NCBI RefSeq assembly: GCF_020405225.1
Contig: NZ_CP084472.1
Coordinates: 1,984,001 to 2,048,000 of the forward strand
Length of the DNA stretch: 64,000 bases
Direction of reading: 5' to 3'
Origin: Natrinema sp. DC36
GTDB lineage: Archaea; Halobacteriota; Halobacteria; Halobacteriales; Natrialbaceae
The position numbers and the translations under genes were made by a program. The first letter of the stretch is position 1. Each line of letters opens with the position of its first letter. Below the pieces are notes generated by a model. That model searched no databases and was not told where the DNA came from. It saw only the letters and a list, made by a program, of their open reading frames with translations. This document shows positions 6,043-57,413 of the stretch, in pieces.

Positions 6043-6044
6043 GC

Positions 6045-7372: not shown

Positions 7373-7430
7373 GATGATTCTATCAAGTCATAGTAGTATT
7401 CGAGACGGTATGCTGAATGCACGGTGCTCC

Positions 7431-33844: not shown

Positions 33845-33922
33845 CTACTTGTTTTTCGTTTGTTAGTGGTGTGAGAAGGAACGTTTTATTACCCCATAGG
33901 ATAACGATTTCTCTAGCTCTAT

Positions 33923-38967: not shown

Positions 38968-41160
38968 CTATCCCTGCGTGATGCTGATGAAGTCTAGCAC
39001 GAACTCCTGCGGGAGTAGTCCACCGTGATAGAACCGCGCGTCGCCGAGACCCTGCTTCCTGAACCGTTTGAGCGGACTCGCGAGGACACTGACGTTGGCG
39101 TCTAGATATCCTAGTCGAGTGCTAGCATCAAGCAGTACGCCGGGGGAGTTTTCGTCTACGTCCTTACCGGCAATCCAGCGTCGACCGGAGTCCGACGCTT
39201 CGCTCGGTCGCGAGATCTTTTCTGGGGATGCGTTGTCTGGGAGGAGGACGAAGCCGTGGTCGGTCAGCACGTAGGCCCGATCCCACTCACCCTGTTCGAG
39301 TTTCGTGCCGATGAACTCCGCGAGCGAGTCGACTCGTTGGGCCAGCAGTCCCTCAAGGTCGCTGAGTTCCTTTTCGCCGATGTTGTCGAGATCGTTTTTG
39401 AAGTAGGCGACACGCGTCGACTGCCAACCGTCGTCCTGCTCGCGAGTGACCGTCCAGCCATCACCGTTCAATAGTGACTCGCGCCGGTTGTTCGTCACGC
39501 GGCGATTGTTACGTAACGGTTGTAACTCACCATCAACGAGAGAGACGTCGAACATTTGGATCTCTCCTGGCGTGAGTGCGGCTTTTCCGAACTCGGTCTC
39601 AGAGGGAAGCGTCCCGAGCCAGATGTCCTCATCGATCGCGAACTCTGGAGCATCGGACGGAAGTGTGGCCACGTAGTTGCGCAACTCGTCCGCGAGCCGG
39701 CGGGCGAGGTCGAGCCGAAGGGCGTCGATGACGAACAACGCCACCGTTTGGCCGCTTTCGAGGCCGTCGGATTCCTTCGTGAAGAACTGATAGGCGTGAT
39801 CTTCTTCGACGAAGGGAGCGCCCGCCTCGACAGTCTCCGTGACGAGGTCGCCGAGGTCTTCCAGGTACTCAACGTACTCCGACTGGAGCTGCGTACGAAA
39901 CTCGTCGAGCGTATCCGCCGCGGGGTGGTCGTTGGGAAGGTCGGTCTCGGGCTCGCCGGAAACGACCAGGTTGAGCATCGCGTTGTCGATCTGCCACGTG
40001 CCGTCGTCCGCGTCGGCGTACAGGGAGACGACGTCGTTGGTCGCGCTTTCGTCCCACGTCTCGAGCTGGTGTGCCAGGCGGGCGATCTCCGCGGCTTGTT
40101 TCCACGTCTGCGTCCACGGGCTGTCCGGGCCGTAGGCGCCTCGGTAGTTGCCGCGGAAGTCCTCGCTCCCGAGGAGAGCGTCGTACCGCTCCTCGGCGCG
40201 CTCGAGGCACACCTCGTAGTCACCGGCTTCGAAGGACGCGTGCCACTCCTCCCAGAGGCGACGTTCGAGCGCGTCGTCGACGATACAGTCCGCGAGTTCC
40301 CACGGGTCGTCGACCTGCGCGATCACCTCGGGCCACATCGCCTCGCCGAGGTAGCGGTCGGCGATGAGGCCGGACGAGGTGGTGTTGTTCAGCACCGACT
40401 TGAGTTCGGGAAGGCCGTGAGCGCCGGTTGTCTCGGCACGGAACTCGCTCGGGAAGCGTTCGGCGTCGACACCGGCGTGAATCAGCCACTCCGCGACGGC
40501 CCAGCGCCGCGTCGCCGCGACGATGCCCACTGGTTCGTCTTCCTTGGCGACGGCGTCGACGCCCTCACTGGTGAGCAAGTCCGTCATCTGCTCGATGGTG
40601 TCTGAGCTGTTGTCGATGTCTCCCCAGCCGTTCTCCAGCACGAACGCGACCGGGTCGGTGTAGCCGCCGGTAACGATCCGCGTGCGGAGCTGTTCGAGCG
40701 TCGGGAGTTGGCCGCCGGTGAGTTGGTCGTGGAGAATCCGCGCGATCTCGCGGCGCTTCGCGGGGTCGTCCGACTGCGTCGTGGTTTTCAGTTCCCACGT
40801 ATCGAGTTGTCCGCGCTCGAACGCGTGAACCGTGAGGTCTTCGATGCTCATCTCCACCTCGGCGCCCGTGTGCTCGACGTCGCGGAACCAGTCGTACTCG
40901 CCCTCGGCATCTTCGGGGTCTTTGACGTGTGGGACGTACCAGACCTGTTCGCCGTCGACAGGATTAGCACGGAGTTCCAGCGGCGTCTTCTCGGCGACCT
41001 TCAGCTCGACGCCGAGGTCGGCACAGGCCTGTTCGATGATGTCTTCGAGGTAGTTTCCGTCGTCCCACCAGAGAACGACCGGGTCTGATGACTCGGCCCG
41101 GTCGAACTTGCTTCGAATGGTGTCTTTCGCGGCGTCCGGAAGGGATTTGCTCGCTTGCAT
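38968..41160 (-). CDS. pglZ: BREX PglZ protein
   Basis: A 730-residue protein. The PglZ core has VALFVIDALRLDLARRLADE at about residues 477-496, WLGTLPSETEFGKAALTPG at about 516-534, and AYVLTDHGFVLLPDN at about 635-649. These are alkaline-phosphatase-fold metal-site positions. PglZ is required for BREX defence and methylation; its exact chemistry is not established. It starts 3 bases after pglX ends. GC content changes inside the gene: the first two thirds (39,650-41,160) are clearly GC-richer than the last third and most of the locus. Confidence 0.9.
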   Translation of the reverse strand: MQASKSLPDAAKDTIRSKFDRAESSDPVVLWWDDGNYLEDIIEQACADLGVELKVAEKTPLELRANPVDGEQVWYVPHVKDPEDAEGEYDWFRDVEHTGAEVEMSIEDLTVHAFERGQLDTWELKTTTQSDDPAKRREIARILHDQLTGGQLPTLEQLRTRIVTGGYTDPVAFVLENGWGDIDNSSDTIEQMTDLLTSEGVDAVAKEDEPVGIVAATRRWAVAEWLIHAGVDAERFPSEFRAETTGAHGLPELKSVLNNTTSSGLIADRYLGEAMWPEVIAQVDDPWELADCIVDDALERRLWEEWHASFEAGDYEVCLERAEERYDALLGSEDFRGNYRGAYGPDSPWTQTWKQAAEIARLAHQLETWDESATNDVVSLYADADDGTWQIDNAMLNLVVSGEPETDLPNDHPAADTLDEFRTQLQSEYVEYLEDLGDLVTETVEAGAPFVEEDHAYQFFTKESDGLESGQTVALFVIDALRLDLARRLADELRNYVATLPSDAPEFAIDEDIWLGTLPSETEFGKAALTPGEIQMFDVSLVDGELQPLRNNRRVTNNRRESLLNGDGWTVTREQDDGWQSTRVAYFKNDLDNIGEKELSDLEGLLAQRVDSLAEFIGTKLEQGEWDRAYVLTDHGFVLLPDNASPEKISRPSEASDSGRRWIAGKDVDENSPGVLLDASTRLGYLDANVSVLASPLKRFRKQGLGDARFYHGGLLPQEFVLDFISITQG

Positions 41161-41163
41161 AAT

Positions 41164-44100
41164 TCAGAGCACCTTGTCCTCGACAATTTCGGGGACGACG
41201 TTCTTCTCTGCGAGTGGTGTGATGTTGATCGCGACGCCATGCTTGTGGTTCGGCTGGTAGCCGGCAGTCGTCACCTCTGAGAGCGCACGATCCTCCCAGT
41301 CGGCGGGGATGTCCGTGGCGACCTCGTCGCAGTCTTCAGAGATCCCCTCGGCCAATTCCTTGTACTCGTCAACGTCGGCGGCGAGTTCCGAAAGCAGCCG
41401 CTGGCGTTCAGAGACGCCTGCATCCCCGATCTGGGCTTGGCCGGCGTCTTCAAACTGGTTGAAGTAGTACGTCATGAACAGAACCCCGTTGCTCGCGTAG
41501 TGCGACGAGCCCGTGAGATCGTCGTAGTGCTCGAAGAGGTCGTAGAGATGGGCCTCGACGGGTTCGGTGCCGTCATCGGCGTAGGCCTCGAACGCAGCCT
41601 GTAGATCGTCGAGTGCATCAAGCCACTCGTCTTGGTTCTTCTGAACAGTCTCGTAGAACGAGGGACTGAACAGGTCTTCCATATCCACGTCCTCCAGATC
41701 GGCGAGGGATTCGAGGGTATCCAGCCGAGAGGCCGTCCGATCTCGGAACTCCGCGACGCGCTGGGCTGCCTCTGCGGCGCGTTCTTGCTTCGCCTCGGGC
41801 CAGTCGCGCGGGTTGGCCTGCGCGAGTTCGCCGAGCTGTTCCTCGAAGACGCTGAGCTGTTCGAGGCCGCTCTCGCAGCGTTCGTACTCTTCAGCGGCGT
41901 CGGCTCGCTCCGAGGTAGAGAGCGACTCGTCATTACGGCGGCTGTTCGCGGCTGCGCGCCGCTCGCGGAGGTACGTCCGCCTGGGCTCGAGGTACTGGTT
42001 CTGTAGGCGGTCGAAGATGCTCGCGTCTAACTGGTGGTAGTCCACGAGGCAGCCGAACCCTTCCCCTTCGGGATCGGAGACGAGCCGCTTTGTCGAAATC
42101 CGCCAAAGGATCGGCGTCCGGTCGAACTTCGAGATATGGTACTCGAAAAGGTCGTTTTCGAGCCATGCCCGGAGATTCGGGTAAGCTTCGTCGCCTGCGC
42201 TCCGGTTACCAAGTACCTTGTCGACTTCTGCGAGCCGATCGGTTGCGTGGTCGCCCCAGACACGTTCGAACTGTGCTTCGATGCGAGTGAGGAGATCGTC
42301 CTCACCGTCAATTTTAGAGAGCGGAACAATCCCATCGTTAGCGTTGTGGACAGAACGAAGCGTGAAATGCAATAGGAGGTCTTTGACTTGTTCGGGGAAG
42401 TCGTCGGAAACTCCCGTAACAGCTTCAGGATCGTACTGTACCCGCTTGCGTGGGTTTTCATTCGTCCGGAGAGAAATCTCTTGGAGGACAGTTTCACGCT
42501 GCTTGTCGGTGATGTTGAAGCAGTCAAAGACAGCCTCATCAATATCATCAGTACGCGACTGGAAGTTTTCACCAATTGTTTCGAGCCGGCGTGCAGCTGC
42601 CTCCCCTAATTTTTCTAGTGATGACGATTCATCGACTATGCGATCAGGATCATCAAGATTGAGCTTCTCGCGAAGTTCTCGATGTGGATGCTGATATTGT
42701 GGGAGCTGATCCCTACTACCTAGAACTTGCAGAAGAATAGGGCCAGAATAGTATGGGGAGTTGAACTCGTACTGGCGTCTCTGGATGATGTATCCAACGG
42801 CATCTTTCGGGAGTTGAGCAATTCGTTCGATTCCCTCTAGTTCGCTAGGCCACGGGAGCCTTGAGACATGGCTAACCTCCCAGTGACGATCTGGTGTCTG
42901 TCCAAGCATAAGATAGGTTATTAAGTGGGAATTCGCGTACCCGAGCATTGACCAGCTGTCAACATCGGGAGCGAAAATCTTTCCTGCGTGATCAAATAGA
43001 GATCCCGGGTTGAGGTAACCAAACCGTCGGCCTCCCTCTTTCAGATATGTATATGTGAGTACTTCTTTGAAATAATAGTCTTCATTTCGTGGGTAAGATC
43101 CGGGGTGACGCTTTACTTCAGATCCGTCCTGCCCCCAGTATATAGTCCGATCTATGCGCGGTAGTAACCATGCATCCTTACCGCCTTTTGCGTAGGGGAC
43201 AAACCCGTCTCCACTACTCTCCCAGAATCTACGTACGAACCTGCCATTATTCCCGGTTGTAAGTCCCGCTTTAACAGAGCCAGCGCTTTCCACCTCCATT
43301 CCACCGTTATCCGCATCAAAGACGATGTCTGAGTCAAATAGCGCCCTAATCTCTCTGGGCATCCAGTATGAAAGTGGAGACCCCGGAATCAGCGAAAACT
43401 CCTCCAAATCTCGCACGAAATTTCTCTCAATCTCGCCGTCATACCTGTGGAAGGAGGTTTTCAGAAAGAGACTCTCTTTCTTCTCCTTCGGAATGTCGTG
43501 TAGCCGTATGAACCTCGCAGAAGGCCGCTTACTCGTAGTATTCCCTGCACGAACCACGGTTCCGGCGGTTCTGACGGTAGCGTTGTCAAGTACGTCATTA
43601 CCATACTCGGTCAAGAAATCAAATGTTCCAAGGCGACCGATGAAGTCCTCCCGGAAATCCTCCAAACTCTGTTTAAACATAAATGTCCGAGGAACAATCA
43701 TTCCAATACGACCATTTTCTTGCGTCATCGACATACACCGCTCGAAGAAATTGATGTAGTATTCTGCGGTGTATTGATATTCTTCTTCCAAATACTTCCG
43801 AACATTCGGTGGAATCCGCCCCTGCGATCCGTATGGCGGATTCATTAGCGCTACGTCGTACTCCTGCGTTAGTACCACCAATAGATTCAGGAAGCTCTTG
43901 AGGTTCTGTTCTCCGAACGAATCGCTCGTCCGTTCTTCGACGGCACGCCGAAGTGCCTTCAAGAAGGAGTGTAACGACTGATGAGCCCCCTCGTTGTAGT
44001 CGGAGAGTTCGGACTGCGTCTTGCTGGAGTCGAACACGTCCTCAAGCGTCCCGCTTACGTCGAGTAGACTGCCGAGCGCCTCCGTGTGCTGGAACGTGTC

Positions 44101-45369
44101 GATGACCTCGCCGAGCGCCTCGCGCAGGTCAGTCCCCTCGCCGGTGATTTCGTCTAGCACCTCGGCGCCCTCTTCGACCTCCGCGACGCGAGCGTCCGCA
44201 CAGACGATGTCGACGTTGGGCATCTCGAACTGGCCATCTTCCTCCTCGGTACGCGTTCGAGCCTTCAGGTACAGATTGAACGCCGAAAGCTGACACGAGC
44301 GCAGGTCGATATCGACGCCGTAGAGGTTGTGTTCGAGTACCTTCGCCGGAATCTCGGCACGGTCGAGGTCGGTCTCGGCCCACCAGATGCGCTCCAGCAC
44401 GTCGAACGCGTACAATAGGAAGTGTCCGCTCCCACATGCGGGGTCAATGACTCGCAGTTCAGACGGGTGATCGAACTCGGGGGCGTCGCCGACCTCCTCG
44501 TCCGGGATGAGGTACGTACAGAGTTCGGGAACGGACGGACTGTTTTCCGGCGTGACCAAGCGCTCCTTGCGTTCCTCAGGACTGAGTGCTTCCGGCTCCG
44601 GCACCGTCGACTCCTGTCCGGTTGCTTCGAGATAGAGTTTCCCGAGCGAGTTGTCGGTGAGCATCCGAACGACCCAGTGTGGCGTGTAGAACTGGTTCGC
44701 CGGGCCCACGTCCACCGGTTCGAGCGTGTTCTTCGCGTCGAGAGCTTCGACGACAGGACGATTGTAGTACTCGTACACCCACCCCAACACGTCGTCGCCT
44801 CGCCACACTTCGTCGGGTACCTGATCGAGCATTCCGCAGAGATCTTCGAACGTGTCGTCGTCGGGGTCGATCAGGCTGTAGGTAGTCGAGCGGTCGAAGA
44901 GGATCTCGATCTCCTCAGCTAGGTCGTCGCACGCGTTCCGGTAGGCTTCGAGGACGGCCTCCTCCTCGAGCATAAACTCCTCGGTGACTAGCCGGTCTGC
45001 CGCCGGCGTGAGTCCGTCCTCGCGGAAGGCCGTGACTTCGTTGTCGACGAAGTCCCGAACCTCCATACAGCGGAGCGCGGCCAGTCGGTTGACAATGGTG
45101 TAACCCACGCCCGTAATGTACTCCTCGTAGCTGCTCTCCCAGTTGTCGCCATCGACGGCTTCGAGTTCGATGGCCTCAACGAGGTCGTCCTGCTCCTCGC
45201 TCAGGGACACGTCTTCGTCCGGCTTCTCGTCGAGGTCGTACTCGTCCTCGAGCTGGTAGCGAACGTTCGCCTCGACACGGTCGCGCATCTCGGTGACGAC
45301 GTCCTCGAGATGCTCGCGCTCTTCCTTGTCGAGCTGGGCCTTGCGGGGTTGGGTAGATTGTCCGTCCAT
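41164..45369 (-). CDS. pglX: BREX PglX adenine-specific DNA methyltransferase
   Basis: A 1401-residue protein. S-adenosylmethionine site DPACGSGHFLLYAF at about residue 307 and catalytic NPPY (VALMNPPYGSQGRI) at about 505, followed by a long specificity region and a coiled C-terminus (CESGLEQLSVFEEQLGELAQ). It modifies host DNA at non-palindromic adenine sites and is needed for phage exclusion. The part after NPPY, about residues 500-930 (42,580-43,880), is visibly AT-richer than both ends, as if the recognition domain had been exchanged. It is divergent from the Kiwa-like pair, sharing a 163-base promoter region. Confidence 0.92.
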   Translation of the reverse strand: MDGQSTQPRKAQLDKEEREHLEDVVTEMRDRVEANVRYQLEDEYDLDEKPDEDVSLSEEQDDLVEAIELEAVDGDNWESSYEEYITGVGYTIVNRLAALRCMEVRDFVDNEVTAFREDGLTPAADRLVTEEFMLEEEAVLEAYRNACDDLAEEIEILFDRSTTYSLIDPDDDTFEDLCGMLDQVPDEVWRGDDVLGWVYEYYNRPVVEALDAKNTLEPVDVGPANQFYTPHWVVRMLTDNSLGKLYLEATGQESTVPEPEALSPEERKERLVTPENSPSVPELCTYLIPDEEVGDAPEFDHPSELRVIDPACGSGHFLLYAFDVLERIWWAETDLDRAEIPAKVLEHNLYGVDIDLRSCQLSAFNLYLKARTRTEEEDGQFEMPNVDIVCADARVAEVEEGAEVLDEITGEGTDLREALGEVIDTFQHTEALGSLLDVSGTLEDVFDSSKTQSELSDYNEGAHQSLHSFLKALRRAVEERTSDSFGEQNLKSFLNLLVVLTQEYDVALMNPPYGSQGRIPPNVRKYLEEEYQYTAEYYINFFERCMSMTQENGRIGMIVPRTFMFKQSLEDFREDFIGRLGTFDFLTEYGNDVLDNATVRTAGTVVRAGNTTSKRPSARFIRLHDIPKEKKESLFLKTSFHRYDGEIERNFVRDLEEFSLIPGSPLSYWMPREIRALFDSDIVFDADNGGMEVESAGSVKAGLTTGNNGRFVRRFWESSGDGFVPYAKGGKDAWLLPRIDRTIYWGQDGSEVKRHPGSYPRNEDYYFKEVLTYTYLKEGGRRFGYLNPGSLFDHAGKIFAPDVDSWSMLGYANSHLITYLMLGQTPDRHWEVSHVSRLPWPSELEGIERIAQLPKDAVGYIIQRRQYEFNSPYYSGPILLQVLGSRDQLPQYQHPHRELREKLNLDDPDRIVDESSSLEKLGEAAARRLETIGENFQSRTDDIDEAVFDCFNITDKQRETVLQEISLRTNENPRKRVQYDPEAVTGVSDDFPEQVKDLLLHFTLRSVHNANDGIVPLSKIDGEDDLLTRIEAQFERVWGDHATDRLAEVDKVLGNRSAGDEAYPNLRAWLENDLFEYHISKFDRTPILWRISTKRLVSDPEGEGFGCLVDYHQLDASIFDRLQNQYLEPRRTYLRERRAAANSRRNDESLSTSERADAAEEYERCESGLEQLSVFEEQLGELAQANPRDWPEAKQERAAEAAQRVAEFRDRTASRLDTLESLADLEDVDMEDLFSPSFYETVQKNQDEWLDALDDLQAAFEAYADDGTEPVEAHLYDLFEHYDDLTGSSHYASNGVLFMTYYFNQFEDAGQAQIGDAGVSERQRLLSELAADVDEYKELAEGISEDCDEVATDIPADWEDRALSEVTTAGYQPNHKHGVAINITPLAEKNVVPEIVEDKVL

Positions 45370-45532
45370 GCGAAACTCAGTGATGTTTCAAGCAGAGCCA
45401 TTGAGATGTCTTGAACATTGTCCATCAGTTGCCAGTGCTGATACTCGAATTCTCGTGGTCAATCGCGAGAAAATAGTCTAACAGAGTGATACAAAAGTGA
45501 CTTTGAGCAGGGGATAGAATCTTGCAAACCTA

Positions 45533-46102
45533 ATGGGGCGCATTCCGAGTTGGGCCAAGGTAGTCCTCTTCTTGAGCTCCTATAGCCCGCTCTACATCAT
45601 CATCGCACTTCGCGCCCACAACGCCGAGCTTTCTATTCTGGGACTCCAATTGGAACCAGTTGGTTTCGGGCCGGTCGAATTGTCCTACCTCTCCCTTGGC
45701 TCGCTACTCGTCACAGTCGTTAGCGTGGCGTTCTTGGCCGTAATGATCCGGATGAACCGGACACGACAGGGTCAGATGAGCGAAATCGAACACTATCGGA
45801 ATCGATCGGATATGTTCACGGAGTACCTGCTGGTCTACATCTTTCCCTTCATCGTGTTCGAGTTCTCGAATATGTTCGACGTGGCGGCGTTTCTAGTCCT
45901 ATTCATAACCGTCGCAGCAATCGTAATCCGTTCTAATCGTCTCTTCGTCAATCCCGTACTGATCGCCTTTCGGTATCGGGTGTATGAGGTCGAAACAGAG
46001 CACGATAGACGAATTCTCCTCACCAAAGAGCGGCTTGATGGTAATGACATAACAATCAACACCGCAAGAATAAGTAGCGATGTCTATATTACTACAAGAT
46101 AA
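45533..46102 (+). CDS. KwaA-like membrane protein (Kiwa system)
   Basis: A 189-residue protein with four hydrophobic segments (AKVVLFLSSYSPLYIIIALR; LSLGSLLVTVVSVAFLAVMI; YLLVYIFPFIVFEFSN; AAFLVLFITVAAIVI) and a soluble C-terminus (RVYEVETEHDRRILLTKERL). KwaA in Kiwa is a membrane protein of this size and topology, encoded directly before kwaB. The assignment rests on topology plus the DUF4868-like partner, not on strong motif identity. Its TAA overlaps the partner's ATG (TAATG). It is transcribed against the surrounding BREX genes. Confidence 0.65.
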   Translation: MGRIPSWAKVVLFLSSYSPLYIIIALRAHNAELSILGLQLEPVGFGPVELSYLSLGSLLVTVVSVAFLAVMIRMNRTRQGQMSEIEHYRNRSDMFTEYLLVYIFPFIVFEFSNMFDVAAFLVLFITVAAIVIRSNRLFVNPVLIAFRYRVYEVETEHDRRILLTKERLDGNDITINTARISSDVYITTR

Positions 46103-47112
46103 TGAGTACAGCGAGCGAAGACGAAGCTCGAGACCAGTTTGACGACCTGGTCGATTTTCTCCAACGGATCGAAGCGGTCGACACGAGCGAACTCGGGATC
46201 GATCTGCTGTTGGCTCGGCTTGACAAAGGAAGTGATGAGGAGTACGCCTACAACTTCGAGCGCATCTCGTTAGATCAAGAGATTCCCGAGGAACTGGAAG
46301 GGCTGGTACGCGAGAAGGTCGAGAACAAGCAGTCCGCCCTCGAAAGCGATAAGATCCGCTTTTCTGACTACAGCATAGAAAACCGCGATCGCGATCAGAC
46401 GTTCGTCCAGTACGAACCCGCCGAAAACATCCCGCAGTTCGATAATTTTGAGCGCCTCCTCGAAGGGCAACGATTCAGCCACACCACATATACTGAGCCA
46501 CCGAAGCCGGAGTTTCAAGCGATCCGTATTCAAGACGGCGAGACGGGGGAGATGGCGATCGCCTTCTTGAATTATTCGCGAAGTCAAATCATGGGGCGGA
46601 CGTCGTGGGCTCGGATGAAGGTAGGGAGTGAAAAACATCGGAAGGTGGATGATTCTCTGATCTCCATCCCCGACCGCGTCGACGCCGTGTATTACGACGA
46701 GATGATGTACATCTTCGTCCAATCGAAGTTCGAAAAGGTGTTTGATTATCTAGCCGAGTACGAACGATGCGCTGACAACGTCATCGAGACTATCGAAGAG
46801 ACGGATATTCCGTTCCATGACTTCGAGATGTTTAGCGAGGCCGTCTACGGCAACAACCGCGTCCTGCGGCTGATGTACAAAGTCCACGAGCGCGGAGTGT
46901 ACGAGGACATGGATTCGGCAGATGCGGCGTATATTCGTGAGAACTTCGATAGCGACGTGAAGTTCGAGGAGAACGGGGACGGAGAGATGGCTATCAAGAT
47001 GGACGACAAACGAGACGTCTGGGCAGTCCTTCGGTTCTTCAATGATGACCACCTCGACTCGCCTCTCACAGATGAACAGTACATTTCGCTATCCAAGCAG
47101 GATGCCGGGTGA
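46102..47112 (+). CDS. KwaB-like DUF4868 protein (Kiwa system)
   Basis: A 336-residue protein matching DUF4868 in layout. It has a beta-rich first half (EPPKPEFQAIRIQDGETGEM), then VDAVYYDEMMYIFVQSKFEK at about 192-211, the marked DUF4868 stretch. Next comes the helix VFDYLAEYERCADNVIETIE and an end with DKRDVWAVLRFFNDDHLDSP, then LTDEQYISLSKQ. KwaB is the cytoplasmic DNA-binding effector of Kiwa and works with membrane KwaA. Start overlaps kwaA by one base, so translation is coupled. It is convergent with the nuclease gene at 47177. Family likely, activity inferred. Confidence 0.75.
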   Translation: MSTASEDEARDQFDDLVDFLQRIEAVDTSELGIDLLLARLDKGSDEEYAYNFERISLDQEIPEELEGLVREKVENKQSALESDKIRFSDYSIENRDRDQTFVQYEPAENIPQFDNFERLLEGQRFSHTTYTEPPKPEFQAIRIQDGETGEMAIAFLNYSRSQIMGRTSWARMKVGSEKHRKVDDSLISIPDRVDAVYYDEMMYIFVQSKFEKVFDYLAEYERCADNVIETIEETDIPFHDFEMFSEAVYGNNRVLRLMYKVHERGVYEDMDSADAAYIRENFDSDVKFEENGDGEMAIKMDDKRDVWAVLRFFNDDHLDSPLTDEQYISLSKQDAG

Positions 47113-47176
47113 TTCAGTCAGAGTGGGGTGAGAACGCGTTGTCAGAACCGTTAGTGAACTCCAACGGTTCGAGATT

Positions 47177-48220
47177 CTACGCAGTTTCCTTCTGAAGTAT
47201 TCTCCGGGCTTCTGACTCCAGCGCACCGAAATTCAGATCTTGATCTGATCGACAGGTAATTCGCACGCCGCTTCGACCACTACTCCGCATATCATCTTTA
47301 ACTGCGACTGAATCGACATCAATTCCGAGAGCTTCGGCGATCTCTCCAGCGTTCAGTGCCTCGGTATCGACATCGTACAGGTCGATATGGAACAAGGTGC
47401 GTTTTGTTCGAATTGCGATACGGCGCTTTCGGCCCTTATTGAAGGCGACGTAGTGTTTCTGACCCCATTCTGGCCCGTTGAGGAATTCGAGTTCCTGTAG
47501 TGCAGTCGTGACGTCTTCCAACAGGTCGGCAGTTTGCTCGTTCGAACGCTCGTTGAGGTGCCAACTCTGTCCGTCCTCCTTCCACGGCTCGTCGGAGGTG
47601 TCGGGACTCACATCGGTCACGGTGTGTTCTGGCGTCGGAATTGTCTGTTCTGCATCGAGATACAACCGGTCGTCGTCCTTGAGGAGTTGGAACTCGATAA
47701 CGGAGATGTCGATCGACCTGTCGCTGAGCCACCGAAGCACGATATCCAGCCGCTCGCGGACGGACTCACCGACGAAGACGATCCGCTGATCCTGGTTGAG
47801 CGTGTAGTCCTCGTTGCAGAACTCGTCAAGTACCTCGGTAAACGTGGTTTCTTCCTCGTAGAGCGTCTGCCCCCACGTTGTAGATTTGAACTTTTTAAAT
47901 TGGTCGCGAAGTTTGGAGTAATCCCAGTGTGAGGTGTACGCGGCATACTTGAGGCCCTGAAAATCGACTTTCGGTTTCAACGCGCCTCGTTTGAGTTCGA
48001 TAGCAACCACATTGGCATCTCGGTCGATAGCGAGGAGATCGATCCCATCGCGGATCTGCTTCACGGAGACTTCTCGACCGATGAGCCGAAAGTCCTCGCC
48101 GAGAATACTTTCAGGACTATTTATAATCCACTCCCGGAGATCATCCTCACGAAATCCCTCATCTTTCAGGGAAACTGTTTCTAATGTGGAAACGTCTTCC
48201 TCATCCCCGACTCTGAGCAT
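47177..48220 (-). CDS. NucS-like PD-(D/E)XK nuclease in the BREX locus
   Basis: A 347-residue protein. Helix DLREWIINSPESILGEDFRL (residues 27-46), then RDGIDLLAIDRDANVVAIEL followed by KRG. Asp61 and E75-L-K77 form the PD-(D/E)XK site in the NucS/EndoMS-like arrangement. The rest has strands and a C-terminal domain (HYVAFNKGRKRRIAIRTKRT) like those behind stand-alone NucS-type nucleases in phage-defence islands. It starts 44 bases after the second brxC gene stops on the same strand, so it may be cotranscribed with the BREX operon. Substrate unknown. Confidence 0.75.
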   Translation of the reverse strand: MLRVGDEEDVSTLETVSLKDEGFREDDLREWIINSPESILGEDFRLIGREVSVKQIRDGIDLLAIDRDANVVAIELKRGALKPKVDFQGLKYAAYTSHWDYSKLRDQFKKFKSTTWGQTLYEEETTFTEVLDEFCNEDYTLNQDQRIVFVGESVRERLDIVLRWLSDRSIDISVIEFQLLKDDDRLYLDAEQTIPTPEHTVTDVSPDTSDEPWKEDGQSWHLNERSNEQTADLLEDVTTALQELEFLNGPEWGQKHYVAFNKGRKRRIAIRTKRTLFHIDLYDVDTEALNAGEIAEALGIDVDSVAVKDDMRSSGRSGVRITCRSDQDLNFGALESEARRILQKETA

Positions 48221-48264: not shown

Positions 48265-51200
48265 TCAGTCGAGCGGCTCGATCATCATAACAGAGCCATC
48301 GGGTAGCTCGTCCATAGTTTCTCGAATCCGCTGCAACTGCTCGTCGACACCGCCAAGTAACTGTTCGGCTTCTTCGATCAGTTCACCTACGTGTTCCTCA
48401 CTCGGCGGGCTGGTTCCCTCTACTGCATCAACTACCTTTTCGGTAAGATCGTGACCAGGATACTCGGATTGTAGTTCGCCGGCAAGCTCCTCAAGCCGCT
48501 CGTCGACTTCGAAGGGATTCTCTGCCTCATCGAGGAGATGCTCTACCTCGTTGACGCTCGGGGGCTGTGACCGACTGAGCATCTCGTTCACATCGGTTGT
48601 GATCGGATGGTTCGGGTGTTCCTCCTCAAGTCGTCTTGACGCATCACGAAGTCGCGACCAGAGCGATGCCTCGCTGCCGGATGCGTCGAGGAGCTGCCGT
48701 GAACGTTCGTATCGTTTGGCCTGCTGGACGACCGTCGGGTCGACGAGGTCTTCCTCCGAGAACGAGTCACCGTTCCACGCCGTCTCGAAGAGGTTGTAGA
48801 GATCGTCGATGGTCACGCTGTCGAATTCGACGCCAACGCGGTCGGCGATTTCCTTGCTGCTCCCATCGTGTGCATAGAGCCACGTAACGAGGCTGGAAAC
48901 CACACTCTCTGGTTCCTCTTCGGGCGGCGTTTCTCCCGTGGTGCGTCTGTACTGTTCACGGACGACAGTTCGTCTGTGAGCGTCGGCGTCGTCGATCATC
49001 GCCCGGAGACGGTCAGTACCAGGTACCTCGTCTCCGCCAACGATCGTCTGCATCTCGCCCGTGATGTCCGCTCCGGGGTACAGCCGTTGCATCTCTGTCG
49101 TCCGCTGGCTGAACCGCTCCCAGAGGGTGTCACCGTCTTCACCCGGGCTAAATAGCCCTCTTGCCCGAGCAAAGCGCTCGGTTTGCTGTTCGATCTCGTC
49201 GGATGCGAAATCGTCTGTATCGAGGGATTCGCCACCGAGTGCGGGTTCGAAAGCTGCTTCGAGTTCGTCCAGCGAAGCGCCTTCGCCGAACTCTCTGCTG
49301 ACTCCACGCAGGACGCGTTTCACTAGCACGCTGTTCTCGTCCACCCACTCGGCCAACTCCGAGAGCCATGCGTCGGGATCGGTTCCGTCCGGTTCCTCGC
49401 CGATCAGTGTCTCGACAGTCTCACGAATTTGGTCGGGATCAATACCGTCCAACGACTCGAATCGAATCTGGACTTCGGTGAGGTTCGTCTTGTTTCTGAC
49501 TGCTCGCCCGATCTCGTCCGGTTCGGTGATGTACTCGTCGTCTCGGCGAAGCGCGATCTCGTTAGCTGTTGCGAGTGTGATCAGTAGTGCCGAAATCGAC
49601 TCCTGTGGCGTCCCGCGATATGTACCTCCGCGCTGGACAGTCTGATCAAGCAGATCTTCAGCACGAAGCGATTGGCTGGCTTCGTACTCATCAAGGAACT
49701 CCAGACACCAACCGTCAGCGAGTTCTGCCCTATCGGTGTCCACGCCGAGCGTGACGGCGTCCTCAGCCGAAAGGGGCCAGTCGCCGACGCCGCGGAAGAA
49801 CCGTGCCATCTGCTTGGCGTCGTCGACTTCCGTTATCCCGTTGGTCAGGACGAACCGCGTCCCACTGAACACGGACTGTACCTGCTCAGCCACCACTCGT
49901 TCGAACGCGTCACCGTATCGCCCTCTCGTCCCGCCAGTTCGGACGTAGACATCGGCTTCGTCGAGCTGGTCGCGAACCGTCGACTCGAGTGCACGCTGTT
50001 CATCGCGATGGTCGGACTCTAAGTCCGGGTACGTCTCCGTTTCCTCCGAGAGGACTTCCTGCATTCCCATCACGTCACGCAGGCGATCAACCGTCGATTC
50101 CGGAACGTCAACGGCGATGAGAACGTGTTCGCCACCGTCCCGTCCCTCGTTGGTCGACTGCCACGCCTCTACCTGATCGCTCACCGTGTCTGGTCGATCT
50201 GCGACCAGTCGAACACGAACGGAGTCGAACTCGGGCGTCGGGGCTCGTTCGATGGGATCGAGGACGGAGTAGCCGAATCGGAGCGGCACTCTACGCTCTC
50301 CCTCGAGGTCGACCTCGTGTCGACTCCCTTCCGAAAGCAGATGATCACTCCCCTCCTGAAGGGAACTCTCCAACTTGGCTGAGAGCCGATGCGACGAGAT
50401 CTGCTGTGCACGAGTTTTCGCCCGGGTCAGGATATCCTCCTGCTTTTCCGAGACCAGCAGATACTCCTCGTCACCACGGTCGTTCGTCTCTGTCAGCACC
50501 TTCCGATCCTCAAGGAGATCAGACAGCGCCGACTCCACGTCGTCCCGAACGGACTCGAACGACTCGTCAGTCGACTTGACCATCAACCGAGCGAGGTTCG
50601 CCGGTGTCGACGGCACTTCAGAACGAACTTGATTGAGGAGGTACAGCGCCTTCGCGACACGGACAGAGAACGCATCCTCGTTGCCGCTAGCCGAGGGGAT
50701 GAGTTTGTTCTCGACCATTTCCTGCACCCACAACGGGATATAGGTCGTCTCCTCAACGAGCAGATCGTACAGCTCATCCCACGTGACGAGGGCACCGACT
50801 GGCTTCTCTCCCCACCCGAATCGGGTGAATAGTGACCGGACGAGGATGAGCAACGCCCGGCCCTGTACGTACTCCTCCTCAGTCACACGTCCTCGCGGCA
50901 TCAACTGCTGAATCACCGTTCGTAAGAGCCCGAGATCGTATTCGCGGAAGGGGTACGACTCGACAGCGTCGGGATCGTCACCGGCAATGTCGGAGTATGC
51001 GTCGAGCGTCAAGCCGGGCATTACCCGGAGAGCAGACTCGACATCCTGTTCGCCATCGGTGTCCTTTTGCAGCCATCGTTTACGGACGATGATCTCGGTG
51101 TCCGCCCCCTCTAGCGGCTCTTGTGCTCCGTACCACGGCTGTTCTGTGACTTCCGTATCTTCGAACTCACCGTGGATACGTTCGATCGGGTACTGCCCAG

Positions 51201-52107
51201 TGCCAATTACGGGGGGATTTGGCCCAATTCCCAACTCCGTCAACGCCTCCATCGTCTCTTGGAACTCTCTGTAGCGATGTCGCCCATCGCCGATGAACAG
51301 TGCTACCTCGTCGAGCCCTATCAGCAATTCCGTCTCGGTGTCAGGGGTGCTCAATGCCTCTTGAGCCGTCTTGATCCGATCGACTAGTTCGTCGGGGTTG
51401 AACTCGTCTGGTTCGACATCATCGATGGCGTCGTCGATCGACTGTTTGACTTCCTCGCGGGATGCAAATGGGGAGTTATCGAGTGTCGGAACAACATCGT
51501 AGAGCCAACTTCGTAGCAAGGCCCGCTCGTCATATACCTCCTGAAACGTCTGTCCGTGGTGCTCGACGTCCTGTAATTGCTCCCAACAGCCGTCGTGATT
51601 CATATCGAGCTGCCACGCCCACTCCAGCAGCCAGTTCGGGTCAGTCGGATAGCCCAGTTCGCGACCGATGGCCTCGTAGATGAGGTACGGAAGCGGGGGC
51701 TCCTGCGACGCGTCCCGGTTGAGGAGGTTCAGGAAAACGGGCTTCAACCGGTCGACGTGTGAGTTCGCGACGCTCTGGCGGAACGATTGGAAGCCCGGCC
51801 ATCGACTCGCCAGTTCCTCGCCGAGATCGTCGAACTCTGACCCGGTATCAGCGGCAAACCCGATGAGTTTCAGGAGGTGCGTCTTTCCTGACCCGAACGT
51901 CGCGGAAATGTAGAGGAAGCGCGGTTCCTCGTGTGGGTACTTGTCGACGAGACTCCCAAGTGTGGTGAGCACGTCGCGAGCGCTATCTGTTTCGTAGAAC
52001 TCGCGGACGTCGTTCTCCGCCTGCGCTCTGGAATTAACTTTCTGGACTTCCTCAAGTTCGCGGGTCGGTGACTGCTGGAAGATGTCGTGAATGTACGTAT
52101 CGCTCAT
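48265..52107 (-). CDS. brxC: BREX ATPase, second BrxC/PglY paralogue
   Basis: A 1280-residue protein with an N-terminal AAA-type P-loop: YISATFGSGKTHLLKLIGFA (Walker A FGSGKTH, residues 71-77) and later LLIGLDEVALFIGD (Walker B). Long helical middle and C-terminus (LDEAENPFEVDERLEELAGE). Large P-loop proteins of this kind (DUF499/PglY type) are the ATPase core of BREX. It shares architecture with the 1227-residue protein at 52682 but the sequences differ strongly, so both are old paralogues. Two brxC genes are a feature described for the haloarchaeal type 5 system. Start overlaps the brxB stop by 4 bases. Confidence 0.85.
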   Translation of the reverse strand: MSDTYIHDIFQQSPTRELEEVQKVNSRAQAENDVREFYETDSARDVLTTLGSLVDKYPHEEPRFLYISATFGSGKTHLLKLIGFAADTGSEFDDLGEELASRWPGFQSFRQSVANSHVDRLKPVFLNLLNRDASQEPPLPYLIYEAIGRELGYPTDPNWLLEWAWQLDMNHDGCWEQLQDVEHHGQTFQEVYDERALLRSWLYDVVPTLDNSPFASREEVKQSIDDAIDDVEPDEFNPDELVDRIKTAQEALSTPDTETELLIGLDEVALFIGDGRHRYREFQETMEALTELGIGPNPPVIGTGQYPIERIHGEFEDTEVTEQPWYGAQEPLEGADTEIIVRKRWLQKDTDGEQDVESALRVMPGLTLDAYSDIAGDDPDAVESYPFREYDLGLLRTVIQQLMPRGRVTEEEYVQGRALLILVRSLFTRFGWGEKPVGALVTWDELYDLLVEETTYIPLWVQEMVENKLIPSASGNEDAFSVRVAKALYLLNQVRSEVPSTPANLARLMVKSTDESFESVRDDVESALSDLLEDRKVLTETNDRGDEEYLLVSEKQEDILTRAKTRAQQISSHRLSAKLESSLQEGSDHLLSEGSRHEVDLEGERRVPLRFGYSVLDPIERAPTPEFDSVRVRLVADRPDTVSDQVEAWQSTNEGRDGGEHVLIAVDVPESTVDRLRDVMGMQEVLSEETETYPDLESDHRDEQRALESTVRDQLDEADVYVRTGGTRGRYGDAFERVVAEQVQSVFSGTRFVLTNGITEVDDAKQMARFFRGVGDWPLSAEDAVTLGVDTDRAELADGWCLEFLDEYEASQSLRAEDLLDQTVQRGGTYRGTPQESISALLITLATANEIALRRDDEYITEPDEIGRAVRNKTNLTEVQIRFESLDGIDPDQIRETVETLIGEEPDGTDPDAWLSELAEWVDENSVLVKRVLRGVSREFGEGASLDELEAAFEPALGGESLDTDDFASDEIEQQTERFARARGLFSPGEDGDTLWERFSQRTTEMQRLYPGADITGEMQTIVGGDEVPGTDRLRAMIDDADAHRRTVVREQYRRTTGETPPEEEPESVVSSLVTWLYAHDGSSKEIADRVGVEFDSVTIDDLYNLFETAWNGDSFSEEDLVDPTVVQQAKRYERSRQLLDASGSEASLWSRLRDASRRLEEEHPNHPITTDVNEMLSRSQPPSVNEVEHLLDEAENPFEVDERLEELAGELQSEYPGHDLTEKVVDAVEGTSPPSEEHVGELIEEAEQLLGGVDEQLQRIRETMDELPDGSVMMIEPLD

Positions 52108-52685
52108 TGGAGATGCACCCCTTCGATCCGCCCCTCGATTTGGTGGGCGGGGTAGTAGTTGCGCGATTCCTCACCGAAGAAGCTCAATTTCCCACCGACG
52201 ATGTCTCCGGGGAACGGGATACCGATGGTCGACTGTATGTTACGGCGATCGAGTTCATCGAGCAGTTCCGAGGCACGCGTGAACGGATAGAGACTCCCGA
52301 GATGCGTGAGAAGGACGACGTGCCTCTGCTGAGCTGGTGACTCGATCTCTTCGACCATGACTGCGACGAGTTCCTCTGCTAATCGGTCTTGCATGGTTTC
52401 GGTGATCGTCTCTGGTTCGCTGTTCTTTCCGAGATCGACTGCGAGTTCGAAGACATCGGTTTCGACGAACAGTTCGTCAAGTCGAAGCACTTGGACGGTT
52501 CCATTCTCCGGGAACCCCTCTGTTTGGTTTGGATTTGTGGCCCACTCGGAGAGCCGATCGGCGACACGTTGCTCGTACTTTGGCTGTACGGGGACGATCA
52601 CGAACGGGTTTCGGATACCGCGTCGACCGTCAGCGAACTGTGCGAGTCGCTCCGTGAAATCGTGGAAGGGACGCTTGCTCGTCAT
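52104..52685 (-). CDS. brxB: BREX protein BrxB (DUF1788)
   Basis: A 193-residue protein with the DUF1788 pattern: RNPFVIVPVQPKYEQRVADR (residues 25-44), TVQVLRLDELFVET, RHVVLLTHLGSLYPFTRASE at about 120-139, then GIPFPGDIVGGKLSFFGEES and NYYPAHQI. BrxB is a small core component of several BREX types, of unknown biochemical role, that likely contacts BrxC or PglZ. It overlaps brxC genes on both sides by 4 bases (stop and start share ATGA), indicating coupled translation. Confidence 0.88.
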   Translation of the reverse strand: MTSKRPFHDFTERLAQFADGRRGIRNPFVIVPVQPKYEQRVADRLSEWATNPNQTEGFPENGTVQVLRLDELFVETDVFELAVDLGKNSEPETITETMQDRLAEELVAVMVEEIESPAQQRHVVLLTHLGSLYPFTRASELLDELDRRNIQSTIGIPFPGDIVGGKLSFFGEESRNYYPAHQIEGRIEGVHLQ

Positions 52686-55600
52686 CGGACGATCACCCCC
52701 GTCTCAGTATGCTCGATACTGAGGTCGTATCGCTCGACGAGTCGCTCCAGTTCTGCGTCCAGCGATTCTCTATCTGCCGGGAGAAGTCCGATCGCCGTGA
52801 CGTCCGTGGGTGACTGTTCACCGACGAGCTCCTGTAACTCCTCAAACGTCTCGCGTATTGCATTGACGTCGCTGCCGGCAACTACGGAGAGTGGCTCCCT
52901 GTCGAGAAGCGTGTTCGTGGCCCGGATGAAGTCGTCGGCGTCGGCGTTCGTCGTCCCACCCGTTACCGTGGAAACCGCTCCCGAGACATCATCGTACCAC
53001 GACACAGCTCGACGGAGCGGCATGATGTATTCGCTCTCGAAGGCCGGTCGGACATTCGATTCGAACTCACTCGCGGGCTGAATCCACGGATGCTCCTGTA
53101 ACTCGTGAACGAACGAACCCACTTCGGTCGAGTCCTGGAACGAGTTCCATGCGTCCTCGATCGCGTCGTCGAGCGCCGGTGAGGTGTTTCGGACGTCGTT
53201 GAATCTGTCCCAGCCGTCGTGTGTCCACCACTCGTCGTCGTATCCATCGATACTTTCACCGAGTGTTCTGCTTGCCGTCTCGCACTCGTCGGTTAGCCAG
53301 TTGTATGACTGCTGGACGAGAGTCTGTTGGGCGTCGAGTTGCGTGAGAGCGGGGAGTCGAAGGTTCCACACCTCTTTGGCGTCTTCGAACCACTCCTGAG
53401 CGTCATTGGTCTTTTCGACGACTTCCTCCCAGTCAGTGTCTCGAGATTTAACTGCCTCTCTTCTGTCAATAGCGTTCTGCTGTTCGGCTTCTAGAGCCTC
53501 TACGAACGATTCAAGCAGATCACGAACGACTTGCGTTTGGACGTCACTCTCCGAAACCAGTCTAACGTCTTCAACAAGGCTACCGAGTCGACCGGCGAGC
53601 GTGTCGTTCGCAGACTGAAGCCTGACAATTCCATCAGGAATGGTTTCCGTCGAGTCGATGAATCCGCCCTTCCGAAGAATCCCTCGTACACCCCCGCTCC
53701 CTGCGATCTTGAGACGCGTCGTCGTCAGTTTATTCAGATCGATGACGGCGTCGAGTTCGAGAGAGTCTCCAGTTTCGTCGACAGGTAGAAAGTCTCCCTT
53801 CCGGCAGAGACCCCAGATGATCGTACACAGCGCGGGGCGGGCATTCTCGTAGATCGACTTCTTTTCGATGATCCCATCGAGGATAGTGGCCATCGCGAGG
53901 TTCCCGCCGCGATGCTTCAGTTGCTGACCGGTGAACGCACGGACGTTGTTTTGAATTGAGCCGCCATGCGTCTCTGGATCTTCCGTGGCGACATCGATTT
54001 GCTGAGCCCACGCAGGGAGTGGGTCTTGTGCGGTGAGTCCCCGGAGTTCCTGTAAGTGGTCTTCCCCTACCTGTAGCATTACAGGGTGGAAGTCGTCGGG
54101 GTAGTTGACGTCGAGATACTCCTCGACTGCTGAAACTAACCCTCCAATCTGATCGCCGCGATCCTTGACATCGAATGTTCCGCTCTTGAGTGCCTCGACG
54201 AGTTTACTTCTGACTCGAACTGCTCGGTCGGCAAGATCACGTTCTACAGACTGGGGGAGTGTATGGTCTCCAACAGCAGCTCTGAGCGACCACCATTCGA
54301 TGAGGGTGTCGCGGAGGTCGTCAAGCCCGTCCTGTCCGATCGTCCATTCGAGCGGGTCTCCATCATAATCAATATCTTTCGCTGCGGGTGAAATTCCCTC
54401 AACGGCGACCTCAACATCGAGTGCATCCTCTGCATCGACCGTTGTATCGAGGCTGATCCCGTCGATGCTGAATTCGTAACGGACTGGGTATTGCTCGCCG
54501 GTATCGCCGTACTCCGCGGACGTCGGAAGTGAGAGATCACGAACGACATCGTCCCACAGATACCCGTCAACAGCCTTGATGACGCCTTCCCAGTCCGGAT
54601 CGTTCACGTTCTGCTCGGACGCTTCGATTATCTCGCGCTCTTCGGGATGGGTGAACGCGTACTTCGGGCCAGTTTCGTCGTGCGTCGGGCGGATAAACTT
54701 CCGCAGCCGTTGGAGCGAGTCCTCCACGCGATTTTCCATTTGGAACTGGGTGGGGCCGTCAAGATCGCTCAAAACGGCGACAGCGAGGTTCCGCTCAGAC
54801 ATCGGAATGGTGTCGGGAATGTGTTGAAGGAGCAGTACGGCCTTCGCGACGTCCACGTCTATTTCCTCCAGTTTGCCGGCGTCGTGCTGCCCCTCTATCT
54901 CGTTGATAACCCCCACGTCTTGCGGGGTGATGTCGTGGAGTTCCGGTTCGATGAGATCATAAAAGTCGACAAGCGAAATGACGTCGGCCTCATCGGCGGC
55001 TGCCATCCACTCCTCCAAGAGTCCGTGAACGAGAGCCAGAATCGCTCGTGCAGTTCCCGAGAAGATCGACTTAGCCGGGTCGTGAGCTTCTTGCCGGAGA
55101 TTCGAGAGGATCTCGAGAAATAGCGGTGGCTGATACGGGAGGAACGGGTAGAAGTCGATGAGCTGTTCCCGATCGATGCCGTCGAGCGGTGGCTCGGTGT
55201 TCTGTTCGATGCCTGAATAGACGAGGAGCGTCTCGGGCTCGTTGCTGGTTCGCTCGAGGACGCGTTTCGTATTCGTCCGCCCGGTGTCCGTCTTTTTGAG
55301 CAATCGCTGTGTGGATATTTCGCCGACGTGCCGGCTCGGGAGGCCGAACCGATGTGGGAATCGATCCTTGACGATGCTAAAGTCGGCACCGCGAGCTGCA
55401 AACTGCGGTTGGACGTCTTCGATCTTGGCTTGTGCTGTCGCCACCAATTGGATGTCGCCGTCGCCGATCTCGTCGACGCTCTCGGCGAGCGTCTGTAGCT
55501 CGGTGAGTCGGTCGAAGTCCGTGCCGATGAAGAGGCTGACCTCGTCAAGCAACAACACAAGTTTGACTGGCTGACCGAGTTCCTTCTCGCGGTCGCTCCG

Positions 55601-56365: not shown

Positions 56366-57204
56366 AGTTCTCCCTCCCACGGTTCAGCCCAGTCGTACGT
56401 GTCGTCGACCGGATGGAGTCTCACTTCACCGTGAATTCCGCTCGCTTCCCAATTCGGATGGTCGCTTACACGTTCGGCCAAGGAGTCCCAGTACTGCTCC
56501 GGCTGGAAGAGGTAGAGCCAGCCGGTCGGCTGGGAAAGCCAGTCATCCCCATGGGCCTCCCACGAGTATCCTGACGCGACCAGCAGCGGTGTCGTTCCGA
56601 TATTGGGAATCTGGCCCTGTAACGCCTGCTGTGTGTCGAGAACGCCGATCTCTCGCATCACGGATCGGAGTCCTTCGCCCCACCGACGCGTCGTCGATTC
56701 TGCGTAGTCGAACTCGCTCCCATCATCGTAATGGAATTCGTTCAGAAGGCGTTCAACTGTGTCCTGCTCGAAGTCCAGCCCGTCGACGCCGGATTCCTGA
56801 AGCCGATTGGCGTATCGGTGGACGATGTACTTCACGAGAGGGTCGTCCTCCACTAAGTAGAAGTATAGTACCTGCGCCTTGTCGCGTTTCGTCTCGCATC
56901 GATCGAATACGGTAGGAAGTTGGACGATCGACGGGAGTTCGCTTCCAGCAGTCTTGAATCGCGAGCTGAGAGCGCGATAGATGCCCTTCGAACTACCGCG
57001 TGTACTACGCTCGTCGAACCGTTCTTCGAGCCACTGCTCTTCGACGACTGTCCAGTCTCTATGTCGGGCGTACAGCCGAGCGAGCATCTCTGCCCGTTCC
57101 ACGAGAAGTCCGCATCTAGTGAGCGCCATCGACACCTCTTCGTGAGCGAATGTAGAGTCGAGCGACGGTAGAGAAATCCCCCTCCCGTCGGTGCGAATAG
57201 TCAT
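56362..57204 (-). CDS. BREX BrxA-like protein (DUF1819-like)
   Basis: A 280-residue protein from the ATG at 57204. The middle, KAQVLYFYLVEDDPLVKYIV followed by HRYANRL, and the block TTRRWGEGLRSVMREIGVLD, then a small winged-helix-like end with PNIGTTPLLVASGYSWEAHG, resemble DUF1819/BrxA, a small DNA-binding BREX core protein of about 200 residues. This one has about 80 more. An in-frame start at 57294 would add 30 residues of atypical sequence. It is the first gene of the minus-strand operon and overlaps the next gene by 4 bases. Assignment by eye and position. Confidence 0.65.
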   Translation of the reverse strand: MTIRTDGRGISLPSLDSTFAHEEVSMALTRCGLLVERAEMLARLYARHRDWTVVEEQWLEERFDERSTRGSSKGIYRALSSRFKTAGSELPSIVQLPTVFDRCETKRDKAQVLYFYLVEDDPLVKYIVHRYANRLQESGVDGLDFEQDTVERLLNEFHYDDGSEFDYAESTTRRWGEGLRSVMREIGVLDTQQALQGQIPNIGTTPLLVASGYSWEAHGDDWLSQPTGWLYLFQPEQYWDSLAERVSDHPNWEASGIHGEVRLHPVDDTYDWAEPWEGEL

Positions 57205-57413
57205 ACTAAATCCCGAACCATCCACACCACTTAGTTGATATGGATGGGATTGGGGAATTGAGGTGGCCGTAGAATGCTTGAGATGGAGCGACAATCAGGG
57301 CCTCGAATATCTCGATGAGAACGCCTCTCGTAAATCCCGTGCGATAGCAATGAAGTACGGATGGCGTATCGAGATCTCCTATGTATAGATGAGGCTCATC
57401 AAGCTCGCAAAAA

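Follow-up and report, generated by a model that had tools for sequence, protein, structure and literature searches.

A predicted Kiwa pair as probable exchangeable cargo in the type 5 BREX locus of a haloarchaeon

Introduction

Does a defence system that lies among the genes of a BREX (bacteriophage exclusion) locus work together with BREX, or is it a separate system carried at the same place? The question is raised by a 64,000-nucleotide stretch of Natrinema sp. DC36 (contig NZ_CP084472.1, positions 1,984,001 to 2,048,000 of the forward strand; the whole stretch is called the window here), in which two plus-strand genes, kwaA and kwaB, lie between minus-strand genes of a type 5 BREX locus. 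The original prediction, made from the letters and their open reading frames, had described a Kiwa-like pair that splits the BREX genes into two blocks, shares a divergent promoter with pglX, and is inherited, and perhaps acts, jointly with BREX. From the present analysis we conclude with good confidence that a complete Kiwa system occupies a fixed slot of haloarchaeal type 5 BREX loci, in which it is carried as exchangeable cargo and would provide an independent defence at the entry stage that complements BREX.

Identity of the KwaAB pair

Both open reading frames were found exactly at the predicted coordinates on the plus strand (Table 1), with the predicted one-base overlap in TAATG. The first protein, KwaA, matched the PADLOC KwaA profile (E 3.6e-26) and the solved chain 9mrg_A of the PDB, with E 3.1e-7 as a single sequence and E 3.3e-14 as a family profile. 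The second, KwaB, matched the Pfam family PF16162 (KwaB) with E 1.9e-16 and 61.1 bits (gathering score 26.3) and the PADLOC KwaB profile with E 2.3e-20. As a single sequence, KwaB had no match in the PDB chain set; its family profile matched the solved KwaB chain 9mrx_K (E 1.6e-8). The DUF4868-like nature of the second protein and the Kiwa layout were thus borne out, solved chains of both partners included. The NCBIfam models scored 75.2 bits for KwaA (equivalog cut-off 100) and 59.4 bits for KwaB (cut-off 200), and these cut-offs are naming thresholds rather than mechanistic features. Hence, both proteins belong to the Kiwa family, though distant from the NCBI naming models.

KwaA is hydrophobic, with Kyte-Doolittle peaks at residues 8-28, 54-72 and 99-132. 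The last peak possibly holds two segments, so the four membrane segments originally proposed are plausible, although not proven. AlphaFold models of KwaA and KwaB, built from alignments of two close sequences, reached a mean predicted local distance difference test score (pLDDT) of only 39.6 and 35.7, respectively, probably because such alignments are too shallow. The gene order, with kwaA immediately preceding kwaB on the same strand, is that of Kiwa, and the two genes are adjacent in all seven Kiwa-in-BREX loci known from this study; the TAATG overlap recurs in six of them and measures 4 bases in the seventh (G002). The E values, together with recurrence in other genera and families, rule out chance for the two matches and their arrangement. 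As judged by sequence profiles, KwaAB is a complete Kiwa pair.

Recurrence between brxC2 and pglX

We surveyed 322 genomes of the class, in which type 5 PglX (E <= 1e-100) was found in 47 genomes and KwaB (E <= 0.001) in 22 (23 matches). PglX gave 66 matches, and up to 40 kb was taken around 47 places as well as around the other half of the split G254 locus. One of the remaining matches is the window, and 13 are second copies or pieces that lie wholly or partly inside the regions taken. Four places (G048:C38, G268:C24, G170:C21 and G018:C12) lie outside the survey, which hence does not cover genomes G170 and G018. The window's genes were then mapped on 49 stretches, the window among them; in 36 of these pglX and brxC2 form a pair in the canonical order, in the other 13 they do not.

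In 6 of the 36 canonical loci (the window, G254, G031, G242, G291 and G002), which come from three families, KwaAB stands between brxC2 and pglX and is oriented opposite to them. The insertion point is therefore not unique to the genome of the window. Each of the six falls in the BREX subgroup that is close to the window by a brxC2 identity of at least 71%, where they make up 6 of 18 loci, and none of the 18 loci of the distant subgroup has KwaAB; the pair is not a fixed companion of BREX. A seventh copy was found on plasmid pBOL4-2_105.9 of Halobacterium sp. BOL4-2, with the order kwaA, kwaB, NucS-like gene preserved. No further close KwaAB copy turned up in additional, partly overlapping samples of the family (125 genomes) and the order (392 genomes), and the phage collection searched for KwaB gave no match.

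Kiwa also occurs elsewhere. No match to type 5 brxA, brxB, brxC or pglZ stood within roughly 10 kb, or up to the end of the contig, of 18 further KwaB places, 16 of them found in the class survey and two in the family sample; other BREX types could escape this search. A KwaA match adjoins KwaB in 14 of them; none lies beside KwaB in L155, L164, L167 and L168, the last two of which contain only a partial KwaB. In L162 (G216; 3621-12737), KwaAB stands upstream of pglX-like and brxHII-like (helicase) genes with 24-35% identity, possibly a cluster of the DISARM (defence island system associated with restriction-modification) type, and L161 has a DUF7814-like gene and a weak pglX-like match near KwaB. 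Separately, the KwaAB pairs of L093 (G142) and L152 (a Halomarina plasmid, discussed below) are closely alike; brxA is divergent from pglX in G142, and the order on the Halomarina plasmid is pglX-pglZ-brxHII.

Exchange of the KwaAB allele

Comparison with Kiwa-less relatives delimited the exchanged segment. The blastn breakpoints in the window fall at 45425 and 47196 against G090, G035 and G225, and at 45423/45426 and 47252 against G084. When the BOL4-2 plasmid is aligned with G035, identity extends through pglZ, pglX and 82 bp past pglX (87%) and resumes at the 3' end of the NucS-like gene, whence it runs through brxA (94%); in the interval, BOL4-2 has 1651 bp with kwaA and kwaB, and G035 has 437 bp with the gene of an 83-aa hydrophobic protein. 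Across the brxC2-brxA block, the plasmid is 94-97% identical to G090 and G035. The 83-aa protein (MVDDFAGPRK... in G090) takes the place of KwaAB in G090, G035, G225 and G079, and its gene adjoins the NucS-like gene in the first three. G084 has similar DNA, in which an intact 83-aa frame was not found.

The junction between brxC2 and pglX as a cargo slot

Gaps larger than 300 bp separate brxC2 and pglX in 30 of 33 loci, pglZ and pglX in 15 of 31, and brxHII and pglZ in 23 of 31. Inside the brxA-brxC1-brxB-brxC2 block, the three junctions show no such gap (0/31, 0/31 and 0/32) and carry no cargo. These measurements cover 33 of the 36 canonical loci, as a coverage filter left out G254, G069 and G114; in G065 and G079, where pglX is in two pieces, the gap was measured starting at the larger one and came to 2937 and 7237 bp, and the alternative values (1019 and 5039 bp) also exceed 300 bp. 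The brxC2-pglX gap ranges from 20 bp (G213), 79 bp and 90 bp up to 7.7 kb, being nearly empty in those three loci.

The contents of this slot are diverse. The NucS-like gene occurs in 8 of the 36 loci. In G224 (L081, 16282-19905), the slot holds a set resembling a cyclic oligonucleotide-based antiphage signalling system (CBASS), with a two-transmembrane (2TM) effector, a cyclase, a TGT-like protein and a CARF protein, and homologues lie in the slot of G114. Other slots contain an OLD/AriA/GajA-like ATPase (G050), a dGTPase-like protein (G069), a HEPN protein (G027), a sub-threshold PIN match (G048) and, in five loci, a DUF6036 nucleotidyltransferase cluster of which one member was tested. Many slot genes had no family match in the PADLOC and Pfam libraries; 29 of the 30 chosen representatives were searched in PADLOC (one crosses a region boundary and was left out), 20 of them also in Pfam. 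The junction is an exchangeable cargo slot, several of whose contents are defence genes. Since different genes, several of them of defence, occupy the same spot in relatives, the pairing of Kiwa with BREX is real and recurrent, and looks like exchangeable cargo, not a merged machine.

The neighbouring junction between brxHII and pglZ has contents of its own. A second pglX is found within the extra DNA in six of the 23 large gaps. Second copies between brxHII and pglZ were seen in G016, G084, G115, G169, G097, G136 and G299, which may thus methylate two motifs; DUF7814 stands there in some other loci.

Two conserved blocks between pglX and kwaA

The 163-bp gap between pglX and kwaA contains two distinct conserved blocks, each associated with one of the two genes. 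Beside pglX, 56 bp of the window are matched at 67-95% identity by 18 close loci, with or without Kiwa, and a comparison stretch of 56 bp starting 60 bp out from pglX shows 32-57% identity. A CAACATTAAAG-type leader also stands beside pglX in most of the more distant loci. On the other side, the 19-base core of the kwaA block lies upstream of kwaA with 0-1 mismatches in all seven Kiwa loci. A scan of the 12 Kiwa-less close loci gave one match with 3 mismatches, outside the slot, and a scan of 31 other stretches likewise gave one with 3 mismatches; no second copy with up to 3 mismatches was found in the window. The gap therefore looks like two back-to-back promoters, one per gene, and kwaA probably has its own promoter separate from that of pglX, which speaks against the shared divergent promoter originally proposed.

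We also considered whether the pglX leader encodes a short peptide (MDN...) in a different, overlapping frame. Among the more distant loci, the majority lack an ATG at that place, and since they have the CAACATTAAAG-type element instead, a promoter or leader is the likelier identity. Because the leader is kept in all 19 aligned loci whatever lies upstream, KwaAB probably sits between two transcription units. The two-block gene order brxA-brxC-brxB-brxC and pglX-pglZ-helicase stands as first described, and the notion that the pair splits the BREX genes does not.

The BREX locus around the pair

On the minus strand, the genes run brxA-brxC1-brxB-brxC2 and then pglX-pglZ-(DUF7814)-brxHII, with KwaAB on the opposite strand between the two blocks (Table 1). 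With BREX-5 PglX and PglZ, brxA, brxB, two brxC genes and brxHII, the locus is by its gene families a type 5 BREX.

Table 1. Coordinates of the KwaAB pair, its flanking elements and the BREX genes in the window.
Feature	Position	Strand	Basis
kwaA, Kiwa membrane protein, 189 aa	45533..46102	+	PADLOC KwaA, PDB KwaA profile match, hydropathy
kwaB, DUF4868/KwaB effector of Kiwa, 336 aa	46102..47112	+	Pfam PF16162, PADLOC, PDB KwaB by family profile
KwaAB allele of the cargo slot	45426..47195		no blastn match in Kiwa-less G090, G035, G225; shared DNA on both sides
kwaA upstream block, GATACAAAA-TGACTTTGA...ATAGAA, probable kwaA promoter region	45488..45532	+	motif in all Kiwa loci
pglX leader, probable pglX promoter and 5' untranslated region	45370..45425	-	conserved whatever the cargo
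Second cargo gene, NucS_C / PD-(D/E)XK-like protein, 347 aa	47177..48220	-	PADLOC PDC-S11 E 2.4e-32
brxA	56362..57294	-	PADLOC BrxA E 4.2e-172
brxC1	52682..56380	-	PADLOC BrxC 2396 bits
brxB	52104..52685	-	PADLOC BrxB E 7.4e-118
brxC2	48265..52107	-	PADLOC BrxC 2531 bits
pglX, BREX-5 adenine methyltransferase	41164..45369	-	NCBIfam NF033454 2433 bits, cut-off 900
pglZ, BREX-5	38968..41160	-	NCBIfam NF033444 1174 bits, cut-off 250
DUF7814 gene, variable cargo of the pglZ-brxHII junction	37678..38946	-	Pfam PF25120 E 6e-7; only in some loci
brxHII helicase	34693..37611	-	PADLOC PDLC02504 2056 bits

Between kwaB and brxC2 lies the NucS-like gene, which had been overlooked at first. Its protein scores 22.7 bits against Pfam NucS_C, slightly under the cut-off of 24, and the homologue on the Halobacterium plasmid is annotated as a NucS-domain protein. 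The segment GIDLLAID...AIELKRG resembles the D-ExK active-site pattern.

Three further observations concern the surroundings. The DUF7814 protein weakly resembles type IIG restriction-methyltransferases (E 0.006-0.04) and might be a specificity or methylation helper. At the edge of the BREX locus, convergent with brxHII, the stretch 33290-34465 (+) probably encodes a toxin-antitoxin pair: a Panacea-domain antitoxin-like gene (PF13274, E 1.2e-9) and, after it, a ParE-like toxin match below threshold. Beyond brxA, an open reading frame of 1193 aa (59172-62753, +) has a sub-threshold DUF927 match.

Inheritance and selection

Both kwaA and kwaB are under purifying selection. Over the seven Kiwa loci, the median ratio of nonsynonymous to synonymous divergence (dN/dS) is 0.07 for KwaA and 0.05 for KwaB, ratios that are rough because dS is high (mean 1.0 for kwaA and 1.6 for kwaB); the medians are 0.12 for brxC2 and 0.23 for pglX. 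Mean pairwise identity in these loci is 87% for KwaA, 86% for KwaB and 84% for BrxC2, and in six of them 65% for PglX and 93% for BrxHII. The claim of joint inheritance holds in part. KwaAB distances correlate (Spearman; the pairs are not independent) with those of the NucS-like gene (0.83), brxB (0.72) and brxC2 (0.52), more weakly with pglZ (0.37) and brxC1 (0.34), but not with pglX (0.02) or brxHII (-0.06), and presence of the pair is patchy.

For a core tree, we used 18 close loci (17 survey loci and BOL4-2, with G027 left out); 10 of the 18 BrxA translations and one of the 18 BrxC1 translations contain one stop, read as X. On this tree, in which some nodes are weak, Kiwa presence requires 6 changes against a mean of 5.8 with shuffled labels (P(<=6) 0.74). 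For the seven Kiwa loci, the trees of KwaAB and of the core have two splits in common and differ in where they place G254 and BOL4-2. Purifying selection together with patchy presence indicates that KwaAB is maintained by selection, yet comes and goes from individual BREX loci.

Discussion

The slot has brxA-brxC1-brxB-brxC2 on one side and pglX-pglZ-...-brxHII on the other; these are probably two transcription units, and for that reason the slot would tolerate insertions. KwaAB may move among BREX loci by recombination in the common flanks, namely the pglX leader on one side and the nuclease gene or brxC2 on the other. In bacterial Kiwa, as summarised in PMC12904381, membrane-embedded tetramers of KwaA build a lattice with dimers of KwaB; infection is sensed by KwaA, and KwaB attaches to the DNA being injected, halting replication and late transcription but leaving the DNA uncut. 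By analogy, the haloarchaeal KwaA would sense virus entry at the membrane, and KwaB would bind the incoming DNA and block its replication and late transcription. Kiwa would thus act at entry, independent of methylation, and BREX would act on DNA whose target motifs lack its methyl mark. The two may be additive backups in one inherited package rather than one machine.

A possible but doubtful account is that KwaAB is useful alone and is kept in the slot by recombination between BREX loci, so that the pairing brings no benefit; it overlaps with the account just given, and the two likelihoods are not exclusive. Such neutral hitchhiking would fit the diverse and exchangeable slot contents and the shared DNA of the flanks, and purifying selection on the pair is silent about BREX. 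It fits less well with the co-occurrence of KwaB and type 5 PglX above expectation, although this figure carries no phylogenetic correction, or with a second Kiwa lineage that also adjoins BREX.

Several observations weigh against independent, exchangeable cargo as the explanation. The close KwaAB clade (83-88% identical to the window) was seen only in the BREX slot, in all six genome copies including the window and in the plasmid copy. A distant Kiwa lineage (KwaB 25%), which the tree separates widely from the clade of the window, is encoded downstream of brxHII on plasmid NZ_CP100450.1 of Halomarina sp. BCD28 and in G142. Type 5 PglX is present in 9 of the 22 KwaB genomes against 3.2 expected (hypergeometric P 0.0016; the genomes are not independent and no phylogenetic correction was made). 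In addition, the dN/dS values are rough, as said, and that of brxHII (0.05) is equally low. A repeated and exclusive KwaAB-BREX association could mean a functional tie, and joint action is still conceivable because the close clade is confined to BREX and the second lineage is BREX-adjacent.

The tie could take the form of a composite system, in which the Kiwa membrane lattice captures incoming DNA at entry and hands it to, or is gated by, BREX. We regard this as unlikely. The two BREX-bound lineages and the purifying selection on KwaAB are compatible with it, the close clade occurring only inside BREX in the samples searched; against this, the pair is scattered over the core tree of BREX, 12 of the 18 close-clade survey loci have no KwaAB in the slot, the pair is cleanly swapped for another gene, its distances do not track PglX, and other Kiwa pairs live away from type 5 BREX. 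Nothing in the analysis shows the joint action once proposed. More speculative, and in our judgement quite improbable, is that KwaAB is a functional front end of haloarchaeal BREX, whose membrane lattice catches viral DNA at the entry site for BREX or substitutes for a blocked BREX; both the close clade found only inside BREX and the distant lineage beside brxHII would then be explained. Finally, that an unrelated membrane and DUF4868-like pair merely resembles Kiwa is very hard to believe, as the sub-cut-off NCBIfam scores, the lack of a PDB match for the KwaB sequence alone and the unusable structure models are outweighed by the exceeded Pfam gathering score, the PADLOC matches of both proteins, the solved chains matched by family profile, the adjacent genes in correct order and the annotation of the plasmid copy as KwaB-like.

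Comparison with known systems

The favoured account, Kiwa as exchangeable cargo with an independent function, can be set beside four known arrangements. The window's pair shares with bacterial Kiwa the two adjacent genes, membrane KwaA and then DUF4868 KwaB, both matching solved chains by profile; it differs in being archaeal, distant, under the NCBI equivalog cut-offs and placed inside a BREX locus. Defence systems nested in bacterial BREX, PARIS (phage anti-restriction-induced system) in Salmonella and BrxU in E. fergusonii, are described in PMC11341690, which also reports pglZ and pglX co-localised in about 9000 genomes, about 7000 with one or more genes between them, and no known defence system among these genes in about 5000 of the latter. 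The likeness is a second defence system among BREX genes. These cases are bacterial type I BREX, surveyed between pglZ and pglX, whereas the window has an archaeal type 5 locus with Kiwa on the opposite strand in the slot between brxC2 and pglX. The main text of PMC11341690 does not mention Kiwa.

Nuclease cargo in or beside BREX loci, PD-(D/E)XK enzymes included, is reported across BREX types in the section of PMC12839542 on auxiliary or backup nucleases. The PD-(D/E)XK-like gene at 47177-48220 resembles this cargo, and OLD-ABC and HEPN cargo also occurs in the slot studied here; the difference is that the section covers nucleases, not Kiwa, and the main text of the paper has no mention of Kiwa, KwaB or DUF4868. 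In the literature joining Kiwa, BREX and haloarchaea, no title announces such an arrangement, though a mention inside a text is possible. With haloarchaeal type 5 BREX as captured by the NCBIfam BREX-5 models, the locus shares pglX, pglZ, two brxC genes, brxA, brxB and brxHII, and it differs by KwaAB and the NucS-like gene between brxC2 and pglX.

Nested defence in BREX is thus known from bacteria, and Kiwa as cargo between brxC2 and pglX in archaeal type 5 BREX appears to be a new form of it. The slot is worth searching for new archaeal defence genes because many of its contents match no family in the libraries searched. The natural Kiwa-bearing and Kiwa-less alleles in closely related backgrounds make the cooperation of co-encoded defences directly testable in archaea. 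Compared with the known systems, the locus offers a complete defence system, predicted to sense entry, at a defined and exchangeable slot of an archaeal BREX locus.

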